From the NCBI RefSeq assembly GCF_017068455.1, contig NZ_CP070608.1, positions 668,501-732,500 on the forward strand: a stretch of 64,000 nt of DNA, in the 5' to 3' direction. The translations under genes and the position numbers were made by a program. Source of the stretch: Fulvivirga lutea (GTDB lineage: Bacteria; Bacteroidota; Bacteroidia; Cytophagales; Cyclobacteriaceae). Below, in pieces: positions 42,536 to 49,244 of the stretch. Below the pieces are notes generated by a model. It was not told the origin of the DNA and made no database searches. It was given only the letters and a program-made list of their open reading frames with translations. The first letter of the stretch is position 1. Every line of letters starts with the position of its first letter.

Positions 42536-42561
42536 AACTAGAGATCGTATTACATCTAGTT
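42536..42561 (-). terminator. Probable terminator of the TPR gene
   Basis: On the minus strand AACTAGA pairs with TCTAGTT, followed by TTTTT. It overlaps the stop codon of the TPR gene and is AT-rich, so somewhat weaker than the others. Confidence 0.55.
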
Positions 42562-44397
42562 AACAAGCTGCTCGCGGGCATCGAAATCGCCACGAAGTTC
42601 TCTGAATCTTTTGCGAGCTTCAGCAATAAAAACACTGCCCGGATACTTCGTTAAAAAATTTCTGTAGTATTCCATAGCCCGTTCCTTTTCGTTAAGCTGT
42701 CGGTCATAAATATCAGCAATTGAAAAATAAGCATCGTCACTTAGTATATCAGATCCATACTGCTCCACTATTCTGTCGAGCAAAGAAATTGATTCAGTAA
42801 ATTTTCCTTCTTTTTTTAGCAAATCAGCTTTTAGCCAGAGGAGTTCATCTGTAAGTGAATGGTTTGGAAAATTAGTGAGCATGGAATCGATCTTAAGTTT
42901 TGCTTGTTCCGTTTTATGCTGAAAAAGTAGCAATTCTATGTTGGCATACTCTTGTAGTGCTACATCTGAAGTATCTAATACTGTATTATCTTTAATAAGA
43001 AGACTTAATGCCATGGCATCATTCGCAATTTCCCGGGTGGTTGCTTCTTTTAAAATATCCAGATGTTCTTCAGCCAATTTAAAATTTCCTTTATAGTATG
43101 ATAATTTGGCATTTTTTAATTTTGCTATATAGCCAAGATCATCTTCTTTATTCGATTTTTCCACCTGAGAATACAAGAGAGAAGACTCCCACGATTCTCC
43201 TTTGAGTAAATAAATATCACCTAAATCTAATTTTGATTTCGACTTAATTTCGGGGTTAGCGCGTGGTGTTTCAACAATTTTTTCAAGTATAGCTATAGCT
43301 GAATCCTTTTCATCTAAATAAAATGCATGTAGCAGTGCCTTGTTCCTTAGTGCTTCTAACGTGTTTCTACTAACTCCTAACTCCTTGATAAATTCATTAT
43401 AATCATTCACCAGATTTCTTATTTCTCTTTCATCAATGGGGTAAGTATTCCTTACACGTTGCTCATAAGATCGGATCAAATACATTTTAGCCAGAAGATA
43501 ATTATTCGAGCCAGGGTAGTTTTGAATCAAATAGCTGAAAATTTTTATCGCATTGTTATAATCATTGTTATTCAAGGCAATCATACCAATGTTCAATGTG
43601 CGGCTTCCTTCTGATCTTAATCTTTTATCAATTGCTCTTGCTTGCAGAAATGCCCCATAGAAATTTTTCTGCTGGAGATTTACCCATATAAGAAGCTCCG
43701 AATAAACTTCACTTTGTGGGTTTTGCTGGATTTTATCATATAAAAGTCGTTCTAAACTTTGCAACTCATCCGGTTTGTTCAACAAAGTTTGGAGCGTGTT
43801 TTTTACTGAACTGAGATTAGCCGGATTTTGAATAACATAGTTTAGATATTCTTCAACCATTTTATCCTTCTCGTTCATGATACGATAAATATTCGCAAGC
43901 TCCAGTGAGAACAAGTAAGGATTATTCAAAGCGGTTCGTCCTTCCGTAAATGTTAAAACAGCATATTGTGTCAATTTTTTGTTTACAAAATAATCGGCTG
44001 TGATGCTGACGAGATAATTATCGTATTTAATATCATCAATGACATTTTTAAAATAAATGTCAGATTGATTTTCACCTTCTTCCGTAAAAATTAATAAACC
44101 TAGATCTAATTTATAATAGAGATTTTCGGGAAATCGTTTTATTAACTTCTTGATATACTTTTCTGCATCATTATAATTGGCCGTTTCCAGTAACAAGAAA
44201 TAGTAGTTGTTATGAATGAGTGTGATATTATTAAAGTCTTTGGCGAGATCCTCGTATAGTGTGCGTGCCTTTTCATATTCACCCTGTCCATAATACTCGT
44301 TGGCCAATTGAATTTCGGTGGTTTGCTGCGCAAGAATATTAGTCGCTACAAACAGTAATAATAAAATCGTTTTTGAAGTTTTATTCACAATACCCAC
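42556..44397 (-). CDS. Secreted TPR-repeat protein
   Basis: 613 residues from a GTG at 44397 (a second GTG at 44388 is equally possible). A signal peptide (TSKTILLLLFVATNILAQ) is followed by many tetratricopeptide repeats, e.g. LANEYYGQGEYEKARTLYED and a C-terminal block YFSIADIYDRQLNEKERAMEYY, in the style of YbgF/BamD-like scaffolds. It lies on one side of the candidate oriC. The DnaA-box TTATTCACA (44381-44389) overlaps its first codons. Role unknown; TPR proteins at this position are common in Bacteroidota. Confidence 0.82.
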   Translation of the reverse strand: MGIVNKTSKTILLLLFVATNILAQQTTEIQLANEYYGQGEYEKARTLYEDLAKDFNNITLIHNNYYFLLLETANYNDAEKYIKKLIKRFPENLYYKLDLGLLIFTEEGENQSDIYFKNVIDDIKYDNYLVSITADYFVNKKLTQYAVLTFTEGRTALNNPYLFSLELANIYRIMNEKDKMVEEYLNYVIQNPANLSSVKNTLQTLLNKPDELQSLERLLYDKIQQNPQSEVYSELLIWVNLQQKNFYGAFLQARAIDKRLRSEGSRTLNIGMIALNNNDYNNAIKIFSYLIQNYPGSNNYLLAKMYLIRSYEQRVRNTYPIDEREIRNLVNDYNEFIKELGVSRNTLEALRNKALLHAFYLDEKDSAIAILEKIVETPRANPEIKSKSKLDLGDIYLLKGESWESSLLYSQVEKSNKEDDLGYIAKLKNAKLSYYKGNFKLAEEHLDILKEATTREIANDAMALSLLIKDNTVLDTSDVALQEYANIELLLFQHKTEQAKLKIDSMLTNFPNHSLTDELLWLKADLLKKEGKFTESISLLDRIVEQYGSDILSDDAYFSIADIYDRQLNEKERAMEYYRNFLTKYPGSVFIAEARKRFRELRGDFDAREQLVN

Positions 44398-44761
44398 AGA
44401 GCAATATTATATATATATTATAAATTAAAAACTATTATTAATTATTACTATGTGGATACGTGGATAATTAATCAAGAGTTTATTTGGTTATGTAGATTGT
44501 TGGTAAGAAGTTGAAGACTATATTAATTATTAACATAAAATTATTTTGTAAGTTATTGATTATAAATGGCTTAAGTACCATTAGTGGATAACATGGTGTT
44601 TTTGTTGATAAAATATTTATGGGTTTACGTTGTTAAGAAAGTGTGGGTATTTGATCAAAATTTGTTTACAGAATACAGCTAGTTGTTTGTTGAATATTGA
44701 TCTGATGTAAAGTATGTATATAGGTCATACCTGTAAACAGGTTATCCCGTATTTATCCACA
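44381..44761. other. Candidate chromosomal replication origin (oriC) with DnaA-box cluster
   Basis: The gene-free stretch 44398-44761 plus the edge of the TPR gene. DnaA-box-like 9-mers (consensus TTATNCACA): perfect TTATTCACA 44381-44389 (+) and TTATCCACA 44753-44761 (+); one-mismatch sites on the minus strand at 44451-44459, 44459-44467, 44583-44591 and 44603-44611. The first two minus sites form a tandem GTGGATAcGTGGATA. Between 44403 and 44450 there are only two C/G in 48 nt, a DUE-like segment. mnmG and two parS palindromes lie within 5 kb. No open frame is visible in the stretch. The oriC assignment is an inference from these signals. Confidence 0.65.
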
Positions 44762-46441
44762 CTAAAAAGTGATGATATTTGGACCTAATTCCCAGTTAGC
44801 TCTTATAGTAAGTTGCTTATTGTCTTCATCGTTAGTGTAGAATACAACTGGTTCTGGTAGAATGTTGAGATTTATATTACCTGGATCCCATCTGCCATTT
44901 TTGTTCTTGTCAACTAGGACTCTTACTAGATAATCGCCAGGGTTAACCTTATCAAATGAAAATATATGAACGTTCTGTTTTTCCTGGACAATTTTAAATT
45001 GAGGCGTAAGTAGTTGCACAATGAAATCCGTCTCTTCAGTATTAATTTCAACTAGTAGTGTTCCTGTATTGGATAGTTGTGCAAAGGCTAAATTACTTTG
45101 TTGTTGATTTGTTGAATCTGAATCTACCGAAACAAAGGCGCCATGACCTACATATAAGTGGGGTTTAGGTGGTGGGGTTCTTTTAACAGAATCTGAACGG
45201 TTGGTTGAAACTTGTTCTTGTTCTGTTTCTTTTGACTCAAAGAGACTTTTATTGATGGTATATTCAAGATCAAATCGGTCTAGGTACTTATTCGCTTTCA
45301 AATAATTAGAAGTATCTAGTTTGATGAGATTTAGTGAGTCTAGAAAAAGATAAATGCTATCGAAGTTATAGCTGATAATGGGTTTGTTAAATGATATAGA
45401 TCCTTTCAATAATCCATCTGATTGGTATACTTTTTCTAAGTTGATTTTTGAATTGAATTCTTTGGGTTGTCTTACGGTTTCTTCAAACTTTACCATGATT
45501 GTGTCTAAGGACTGGGTGCCTAGACTATCGGTGGCAATGACATATGTTTCTGTGCTGTCCAGAGTAATGTTATTATTAAATATCTGGATGTTGGTTTGAT
45601 TTTCATCAGTGAAGTTTGAATATAATTCTATGGTATCCGTGTTGATGAGTGAATAATCAATAATGTTTTTATTGTACTTGATTTCGAATATAGTACCGTT
45701 TTGTCTTGCACTAATCAATGCCAGAGGTTTGGCATTTGTTGAAGTGGTAATTATGTCAATTTTAGAAATAGAACTATCGAGTTTAATGGTACTCTCTATA
45801 AATCCATGCGATTCTTCATCCAATTCTAATTTCAGGTTTTTGTTTTTATCAGATACGGCATAAATATTATAGTTACCGTTTTTTATATTTTCAAATTTGT
45901 AGATTCCTTTGTCGCTTGCTTTGGTAAAGTATAGGGGTTTGTCTTCAAAGATGTTTAGAGTGTCTTGAGCGTTGTAGAGAAATAGAGAATAATTACTACC
46001 GGGTTTATCCGTAAGAATATCCTTAACCGATCCTTTAATAAATAGTGAGTCAAGATAACTACCAGTACTAAATGCCAGCTTTAAATCTTCAGGACTATTT
46101 CCTTCAGTAAGATCTTGAATGCCCTCTCTAAAGTTGATAGTGTAGGTTGTACTGTCGGGTAGGTATTCATCAAATTCGATATAGACCTTATCTTTTCTAA
46201 TCTTATATTTTTTTTCTATTTCCGTCTGCGGTGATATAATAATCTGATCATCAGCTTTGTTGAGTTTAACATACTCATCAAATACTAATTCAATTTCTTT
46301 GGTTTTAACATTGATGCTTTTATTCTTCGGGTTCGAGCTAACAAGGTTTGGTGGATCCTGATCTTTTGGGCCTCCTGTTGGGGCGGTTTGATTTGCACAG
46401 CTGGCAAGAAATAATATTACTAACGGCAGGTACCTCCTCAT
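44762..46441 (-). CDS. Ig-like (SbsA/Big_5 type) domain lipoprotein
   Basis: 559 residues. A lipoprotein signal (LVILFLASCANQ) is followed by TAPTGGPKDQDPPNL and an Ig-like beta-sandwich (NVKTKEIELVFDEYVKLN) typical of a family widespread in Bacteroidota. Further beta-rich regions and a C-terminal domain (GDYLVRVLVDKNKNGRWDPGN) that looks like a carboxypeptidase-regulatory fold follow. Function unknown; surface-exposed lipoprotein likely. It overlaps the methyltransferase stop by 4 nt, and its stop abuts the perfect DnaA box. Confidence 0.78.
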   Translation of the reverse strand: MRRYLPLVILFLASCANQTAPTGGPKDQDPPNLVSSNPKNKSINVKTKEIELVFDEYVKLNKADDQIIISPQTEIEKKYKIRKDKVYIEFDEYLPDSTTYTINFREGIQDLTEGNSPEDLKLAFSTGSYLDSLFIKGSVKDILTDKPGSNYSLFLYNAQDTLNIFEDKPLYFTKASDKGIYKFENIKNGNYNIYAVSDKNKNLKLELDEESHGFIESTIKLDSSISKIDIITTSTNAKPLALISARQNGTIFEIKYNKNIIDYSLINTDTIELYSNFTDENQTNIQIFNNNITLDSTETYVIATDSLGTQSLDTIMVKFEETVRQPKEFNSKINLEKVYQSDGLLKGSISFNKPIISYNFDSIYLFLDSLNLIKLDTSNYLKANKYLDRFDLEYTINKSLFESKETEQEQVSTNRSDSVKRTPPPKPHLYVGHGAFVSVDSDSTNQQQSNLAFAQLSNTGTLLVEINTEETDFIVQLLTPQFKIVQEKQNVHIFSFDKVNPGDYLVRVLVDKNKNGRWDPGNINLNILPEPVVFYTNDEDNKQLTIRANWELGPNIITF

Positions 46442-47314: not shown

Positions 47315-49177
47315 CTATCTTGAAAGATATACCATTAATATAGAAATGTCTGATGGAGAAACACCGCTTATTCTACTGGCCTGGCCAATTGTTTTGGGCT
47401 TTATTTTAATAAGCTTTTGCATAGCTTCTGCGGATAGAGCTTTAATTTCTGTGTAGTCAAAGTTGTCGCGTATCTTTTTATTTTCTAAAGATTCCATTTT
47501 TTCCGCAAGTTGCCTTTCTTTTTCGATGTAGGTCTCATACTTAACAGAAACTTCTGCTTGAAAAAGTGTATCTTCTTGATATTCAGAGATATAAGCATTC
47601 AATTCTTGATTTAATTTGGCTAAATCATTGATGCCTACTTCTGGTCGTCTTAATAGGTTTATTACCGGAACCCTCTGTTTGAGTGTAGCAGTATTTAATT
47701 CGGAAAGAGCTCCATTTGATTCATCGGGTTCGATTCGTTTTTGGTTAAGGTCATTGATTAGCCTGTTCAAATCATTTTTCTTGTCAAATAGTTTTTCCAG
47801 TCGATCATCAGATGCCAATCCGATACTATGCCCTTTTTCAGTTAAGCGAATGTCAGCATTGTCTTGTCTTAATAAAATTCTGAATTCTGCACGAGATGTA
47901 AACATTCGGTAAGGCTCTTCAGTACCTTTATTAATTAGATCATCTATCAATACACCGATATAAGCTTCTGATCTTTTTAAGACAAACTCATCTTTATCAT
48001 TAATTTTATTGTGTGCGTTAATACCGGCTACCAGTCCCTGGCATGCTGCCTCTTCATATCCAGTAGTTCCATTTATCTGTCCAGCAAAATAAAGGTTTTG
48101 CACCAGCTTGGTTTCTAGTGTAAGGCTTAGTTGTGTAGGTGGAAAATAATCATACTCTATAGCGTAACCGGGCCTAAACATTTTGGCTTTCTCAAACCCA
48201 GGTATTTGAATGAGTGCTTTATGTTGGACATCTTCAGGTAGAGAAGTTGAAAATCCATTCACATATATTTCAACGGTGTTCCAACCTTCTGGCTCAACGA
48301 AAATTTGATGTCTATCGCGTTCAGCGAATCTGTTTATCTTATCTTCTATAGAAGGGCAATATCTAGGGCCAACACCCTGGATTCTACCATTGAACATAGG
48401 AGACTTGTCAAAGCCTGTTTGTAGAATCTCGTGAACAGTATTGTTCGTATACGTGATGTGACAACTTCTTTGTTCGGATAAAGGTTTGGTATCTGAATAT
48501 GAAAACTTACCTGGCACTTCGTCACCTTTCTGTTCTTCCATTTTGGAGAAGTCTAAGCTACGTGCATCTACTCGAGGTGGCGTACCTGTTTTCATTCTTC
48601 CTGACTCAAAACCTAATTGAACTAGCTGTTCGGTTATTCCAGTAGCTGCTCTCTCGCCAGTTCTGCCACCGCCAAACTGTTTTTCACCAATATGAATGAG
48701 ACCATTCAGGAATGTTCCATTAGTTAGTACAACAGCTTTTGCCTTTATTTCTAGACCTAAAGAAGTGGTGACTCCTGTTACTTTTCCGTTTTCTACGATG
48801 ATACCTGTGGCCATTTCCTGCCAGAAGTCTACGTTGGGATTGTGTTCCAAAGCTAATCTCCATTCTTCAGCAAAACGCATTCTATCATTTTGTGTACGTG
48901 GACTCCACATGGCAGGACCTTTTGATTTGTTGAGCATGCGAAATTGAATCATAGATTTGTCAGAAATAATTCCTGACATTCCGCCTAGTGCATCTATTTC
49001 TCTAACTATTTGTCCTTTAGCTATTCCACCCATTGCAGGATTACAAGACATTTGCGCAATGGTGTTCATGTTCATAGTTACTACCAAAACTTTAGAACCC
49101 ATGGTTGCTGCCGCATGTGCAGCTTCGCAACCGGCATGTCCTGCCCCTACTACTATAACATCGTATTTATCAAACAT
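47315..49177 (-). CDS. mnmG: tRNA uridine-5-carboxymethylaminomethyl(34) synthase subunit MnmG
   Basis: 620 residues, normal length. The FAD-binding N-terminus is [14 protein letters not shown]; the GidA signatures [22 protein letters not shown] and the [20 protein letters not shown] stretch are intact. With MnmE it forms cmnm5U34 at the tRNA wobble position. The gene (gidA) is a classical neighbour of bacterial replication origins. Two parS-type palindromes lie directly upstream, between it and ybeY. Confidence 0.97.
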
Positions 49178-49188
49178 ATTATTATAAG

Positions 49189-49204
49189 TGTTCCACGTGG
49201 AACA
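49189..49204. other. parS-type centromere site 1
   Basis: TGTTCCACGTGGAACA, a perfect 16-nt palindrome close to the conserved chromosomal parS consensus TGTTTCACGTGAAACA bound by ParB (Spo0J). It is 11 nt upstream of the mnmG start. Confidence 0.8.
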
Positions 49205-49224
49205 TTAACATTTTGTATTCACTA

Positions 49225-49244
49225 GATGTTCCACGTGGAACATC
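49225..49244. other. parS-type centromere site 2
   Basis: GATGTTCCACGTGGAACATC, a perfect 20-nt palindrome containing the same 16-mer as site 1. Its centre is 38 bp from that of site 1, and it touches the stop codon of ybeY. Confidence 0.8.

Follow-up and report, generated by a model that had tools for sequence, protein, structure and literature searches.

The oriC of Cytophaga hutchinsonii was reportedly mapped in an original paper, and a DoriC or Ori-Finder prediction may exist for the genome of Fulvivirga lutea studied here. Plasmids carrying the C. hutchinsonii oriC are in use (PMC5288383). Among the titles listed by full-text literature searches, none was on a Fulvivirga or Cytophagales origin, the search by the name Fulvivirga being little informative.

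In E. coli, the short motifs TTGT and TTATT bind the DnaA complex, as described in PMC10316083. The candidate origin presented here is similar to E. coli oriC in having mnmG nearby, in carrying DnaA boxes flanked on one side by an AT-rich element and, by comparison with the E. coli sequence, in placing TTATT 5' of TGTGGATAA on the same strand and with the same polarity. It differs in that mnmG is separated from the origin by two genes, the far flank is occupied by a TPR gene instead of mioC, and the boxes next to the AT tract are arranged as an 8-bp tandem.

In the basal unwinding system (BUS) of B. subtilis, two co-oriented boxes are located directly beside an AT element with a 3-nt period, according to PMC8287927 and PMC10721633, and the same arrangement is found in this locus. 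In B. subtilis DnaA, N187 contacts the adenine of the DnaA-trio, whereas R202 and E228 contact its guanine (PMC10721633). Unlike that system, the canonical trios are at chance level here, R202 and E228 are absent from DnaA, and dnaA is unlinked. In the oriC of Thermotoga maritima, too, the unwinding element has a TTATT of the E. coli type close to the boxes, but it needs three TAG repeats, which sets it apart from this locus (both points from PMC10316083).

DnaA boxes and AT-rich tract upstream of the TPR gene

The genome is a single contig of 4,137,993 bp, and the window, i.e. the whole stretch of 64,000 nucleotides analysed, corresponds to its bases 668,501-732,500. The proposed oriC core is located at 44381-44761 (genome 712,881-713,261), without an assigned strand, and contains seven DnaA-box-like sites and a putative AT-rich unwinding region. 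One flank is a gene encoding a TPR-repeat protein (42556-44397, minus strand), whose nearest named homologue belongs to an uncultured Fulvivirga (76% protein identity). The gene on the other flank (44762-46441, minus strand) encodes a Big_5 Ig-like domain together with DUF2141.

Two perfect boxes delimit the core on the plus strand, TTATTCACA at 44381-44389, on the TPR side of the AT tract, and TTATCCACA at 44753-44761, adjoining the stop codon of the Ig-domain gene. Between them, the minus strand carries the tandem TTATCCACGTATCCACA, with two boxes 8 bp apart (44451-44467), and the one-mismatch sites TTATCCACT (44583-44591) and TTATCAACA (44603-44611). All the 9-mers named in the original prediction (perfect at 44381 and 44753, one mismatch at 44451, 44459, 44583 and 44603) were found in place. 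Its six boxes were therefore right, but the count was too low, since a seventh, weak site (TTATTAACA, plus strand) that was absent from its list is present at 44527-44535.

The region had also been described as a gene-free stretch of 360 bp. This is correct for most of it but not at 44381, where the box and the TPR start region overlap, and the gene-free part is reduced to about 44389-44761. The TPR start in the ORF list is the GTG at 44397, and a second in-frame GTG (VNKTSKTILLLLFV...) is equally likely. As the box at 44381 lies within this start region (44381-44397), DnaA might also influence the transcription of the TPR gene.

Regarding the statistics of the cluster, seven DnaA-box-like 9-mers in 381 bp compare with a mean of 1.30 in dinucleotide shuffles of the stretch (n = 3000), where seven were reached once and two perfect boxes eight times. 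Single boxes are not enriched either in the window (77 at no more than one mismatch vs 86.8 expected) or, as exact TTATNCACA, genome-wide (188 vs 192 for the reversed control). Since they occur at the expected frequency, only the clustering is informative, and single boxes were dropped as evidence of an origin. The search for a denser cluster elsewhere covered 824 kb, about 20% of the genome, made up of the window and 38 stretches of 20 kb after two overlapping ones had been dropped. The candidate was the densest 381-bp cluster of this sample, with seven boxes, and the runner-up windows had five. Moreover, the TTATCCACGTATCCACA tandem is single in the genome at no more than one mismatch.

The proposed DNA-unwinding element covers 44403-44450 (no strand), 48 nt with only two G/C letters, just as had been predicted, and it is the sole such tract in the window (a start at 44404 designates the same tract); the complete 381-bp stretch is 74% AT. 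Two TTATT motifs are placed beside the tandem on the plus strand at 44435-44446 (44435-44439 and 44442-44446), with the same polarity as in E. coli. The co-oriented boxes of TTATCCACGTATCCACA are directly beside the AT tract, which is the tandem arrangement of a BUS. The AT tract beside the tandem is a putative melting site.

Position in the chromosome

Cumulative GC skew, calculated from 20 evenly spaced 20-kb stretches, had its minimum between 638 and 824 kb. Uncorrected fourfold-site skew was discarded because it is confounded by gene strand, and a regression was used instead, in which both gene strand and replication side enter as terms to explain the fourfold-site skew of 641 ORFs located in 824 kb. 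The best breakpoint was 708,735 (708.7 kb), with the terminus near 3.0 Mb. In scaled-RSS units, the candidate (712.9-713.3 kb) was 4.7 worse than this best fit, compared with 4.3 for 700 kb, 22.3 for 650 kb and 35.8 for 750 kb. Positions no more than 6 units worse range from about 680 to 713 kb; the candidate is at the edge of this range, and the best fit is 4-5 kb to the left of the candidate. The switch that had been proposed as a check therefore falls in the candidate's neighbourhood: with about 20% of the genome sampled, the skew points to it to within some tens of kb, with a slight preference for a position 4-5 kb to the left.

The same analysis was applied to six relatives with single-contig genomes (10 stretches of 20 kb each), comparing ten rotations of the axis. 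With strand correction, the axis through the homologous locus ranked first among the ten rotations in five of the six, clearly in G004, G006 and G026 and by tiny margins in G039 and G044, and it was a close second in G014. With plain base skew, the axis through the locus was also the best in five out of six, the failure being G044. The skew is weak in G039 and G044.

Two perfect parS sites (TGTTCCACGTGGAACA) are located between mnmG and ybeY at 49189-49242 (49189-49204 and 49227-49242, no strand), 4.4-4.9 kb from the candidate origin. In the genome, they correspond to 717,689 and 717,727, and no other place was found at up to two mismatches. The reversed control of TGTTCCACGTGGAACA gave three matches per strand at this threshold, hence only perfect parS matches count. 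The mnmG (gidA) gene is on the minus strand at 47315-49177 and was identified by TIGR00136 (847.6 bits vs a cut-off of 524.85). The original prediction, which had placed mnmG and two parS sites within 5 kb of the candidate, was consequently correct on both, the two 16-mers being perfect.

A parS at no more than one mismatch was present in 47 of the 58 genomes. The spacing between parS and the TPR gene was obtained for 39 of the 47, among the matches listed: parS was on the contig of the TPR gene in 29, on another contig in 6, and 4 had no TPR place. In 28 of these 29 listed genomes, the one studied here included, the nearest parS was found upstream of the TPR gene at a distance of 3.9-5.1 kb, and in G047 at 13 kb.

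Linkage to dnaA is common for oriC but does not define it. The search that had been suggested for dnaA and parAB did find dnaA and parB, but neither of them near the candidate. The genome has a single dnaA, whose product matches solved DnaA structures over the full length and which is 967 kb from the candidate; the only match to parB is at 2,416,215. In six other single-contig genomes, dnaA is at least 763 kb from the locus. The distance of both genes does not argue against an origin.

Conservation in relatives and alternative explanations

The TPR protein was found in 51 of the 58 genomes searched, including the one studied here. The comparison of the intergenic region in related Bacteroidota, another of the checks proposed, was based on 52 loci: 30 with the own locus included, 2 from the search with the single TPR protein and a further 20, leaving out G048 (genus, order and phylum are database labels). 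At least five boxes within 450 bp upstream of the TPR homologue were present in 42 of the 52 loci vs 2 of 1045 control windows from the own genome. The ten loci below this number were L016, at a contig end, and L031, G036, G046, G047, G053, G054, G055, G038 and G057, with 0-4 boxes. In the loci with few boxes, other than L016, the TPR gene may have left the origin. Genomes of the order with 0-4 boxes upstream of the TPR gene were those of L031, L077, L078, L082, L086, L088, L091, L092 and L094.

The tandem was defined as two boxes 8 or 9 bp apart with a score of at least 15/18, the next 45 nt being at least 75% AT. This combination appeared in 34 of the 52 loci, the tandem being below threshold in the other 18, vs none of 1097 control windows of the own genome (37 as AT-rich as 68%). 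Those 1097 windows include two overlapping stretches; after their removal, none of 1045 controls passed in either orientation. A tandem in reverse orientation also passes in 9 of the 52 loci. When the 15 genus-level loci were aligned, no 17-column stretch of the gap was better conserved than the tandem (mean 0.96); the outer box ranked next (0.89), and after it the beginning of the AT tract (0.88). The AT-rich tract is at the same position in the 14 other loci of this alignment, and the box at the position of 44753 is conserved within one mismatch in all 15.

The pattern TTWTCCACGTATCCACA was also tried as a stand-alone origin finder. At no more than one mismatch it gave 27 matches in 24 of the 58 genomes, with 5 for the reversed control, and it was rejected for this use as 18 of the 27 matches were at the TPR gap and 9 elsewhere. 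A plasmid-borne match was looked for in a plasmid collection, where none appeared. In G037, a one-mismatch tandem match is at C23:38325, while the TPR gene is on C35 (L031) with an upstream gap without boxes. The origin and the TPR gene may have separated in this genome, which is a weak suggestion given that 9 of the 27 matches lie off the TPR gap.

Considering the box cluster, the AT tract, the skew switch nearby, the unique perfect parS pair and the arrangement conserved in relatives, all of them features read from the sequence, 44381-44761 is very probably the chromosomal replication origin oriC, which supports the original prediction. The skew fit and the TPR start region are what could speak for another function: the breakpoint fits best at 708.7 kb instead of 713 kb, and one box overlaps the start of the TPR gene. 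The cluster would then serve DnaA titration or regulation, like datA or DARS, or would be an autoregulated TPR promoter, and the true origin would be elsewhere in 680-713 kb. This is quite improbable, however, when the AT tract accompanies a conserved tandem in many genera, the parS spacing is near-constant, and no other cluster of more than five boxes exists in the 824 kb that include the whole window. In addition, datA and DARS sites are not known to have an unwinding element, which also counts against titration.

An explanation by composition, in which boxes and AT tract would have arisen by chance in an AT-rich intergenic region, can appeal to the 74% AT of the region and to the lack of enrichment of single boxes in the window or genome. 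It is hardly credible, since only 1 of 3000 composition-preserving shuffles reached seven sites, and the recurrence of cluster and tandem at the same place across genera contradicts it. Furthermore, skew and parS coincide with the locus independently.

If 44381-44761 is the origin, DnaA, produced from a gene 967 kb away, would load on the box cluster, and two DnaA molecules on the tandem (44451-44467) would guide an oligomer of DnaA-ATP to one of the two strands of the AT tract. The tract (44403-44450) would then open for helicase loading, and initiation would be bidirectional. The opened strand would probably be read through repeats of the TTATT/TTGT type and not through Bacillus-type DnaA-trios. 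ParB, encoded elsewhere, would bind the two parS sites 4.4-4.9 kb off, and the parS-bound ParB could gather and segregate the new origins. These results offer a concrete candidate origin for an order of Bacteroidota where dnaA is no guide, as well as a possible rule to find others: the gap upstream of the TPR gene, near mnmG and about 5 kb from parS.

Opening site and DnaA residues

The motif tests were run on 20 loci, those above the threshold among the 38 left once the 14 other genus-level loci had been removed; they represent one locus per genus as far as labelled, L073 being without genus label and L084 and a few others doubtful. In the 30 nt beside the tandem, TTATT/TTGT occurred 49 times in the 20 loci on the TGTGGATA strand and 3 times on the other strand. 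The mean of 1000 shuffles was 17.3 and the maximum 29, with the limitation that the 52 loci are related and shuffle statistics treat them as more independent than they are. E. coli-type ssDUE motifs, TTATT/TTGT on the TGTGGATA strand beside a box, are therefore found in the sequence.

Runs of canonical DnaA-trios (5'-TAG/TAA/AAG-3', on the strand opposite to the TTATCCACA strand) were at chance in the 20 loci (1.10 vs 1.14), and the Bacillus-type trio reading was dropped for this reason. A looser trio rule of at least three NAN, taken from PMC8287927, was weakly exceeded (3.45 vs 2.9). Period-3 runs of T[A/G]T on the strand that bears TTATT/TTGT reached 2.55 vs 1.41. These repeats are TA[A/G] or [T/C]AA on the other strand, with similar scores, so the sequence alone cannot tell which strand is read.

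Regarding the initiator, the dnaA search in 58 genomes gave no match in G017 and G052, and G056 was without the segment. The residue count, which leaves out G003, G022, G036, G038, G040 and G048, included 50 DnaA proteins: the own one, 48 from relatives and that of G058, a genome of no assigned kinship with a contig titled Cyclobacteriaceae. The structures compared included 8btg, which we take to be B. subtilis DnaA, 2z4r, presumably T. maritima DnaA, and 1l8q. The first assignment is consistent with the residues named in PMC10721633. The position of R202 is never R or K and that of E228 is never E in the 50 proteins, whereas the position of N187 is N in 41 of them. At these guanine-pocket positions, T. 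maritima DnaA (2z4r) differs in having R and E, and E. coli DnaA has K and E at the R202 and E228 positions. The position of B. subtilis Q224, an arginine in E. coli, is R or K in 49 of the 50. That E. coli arginine (R245) binds single-stranded DNA. Among other genomes of the phylum (24 of 30 sampled), none has R or K at the R202 position, and 12 of 24 have E at the E228 position. This residue pattern fits a single-strand code without guanine, as a correlation among related sequences in which the loss is partly phylum-wide.

A tentative reading, for which we would claim somewhat less than an even chance, is that the order has a third recognition code for origin opening, in which the guanine-contact residues and the origin guanine have been lost and the origin repeats are joined to a BUS-type tandem. 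Concerning DnaA, the adenine-contact Asn (N187) would have been kept, as seen in 41 of 50 proteins, and the two guanine-reading residues lost. Concerning the origin, the code would consist of period-3 repeats poor in G, which are T[A/G]T when the T-rich strand is read; seen on the other strand, TAA/CAA would be equal to trios moved to the opposite strand. If this were true, initiator and origin would have co-evolved a single-strand code that joins the E. coli and Bacillus models.

The oriC itself would be an ordinary, expected kind of element, but its opening site looks unlike the textbook Bacillus type. The order-wide anatomy of the origin and the paired absence of the trio guanine and the guanine pocket may be new. 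The fact that pocket and motif guanine are apparently missing together bears on how general the B. subtilis BUS code is, and the locus could serve as a natural test case for the recognition of single-stranded DNA by DnaA.

Among the 20 loci, only L073, from a Cyclobacteriaceae MAG, has three canonical trios in a row (TAGTAATAG). The DnaA of this genome lacks R202 and E228 despite the three trios, which counts against a strict co-variation. Phylum-wide (DnaA loci L157-L236), R202 is missing in 74 of 74 DnaA proteins and E228 in 62 of 74.
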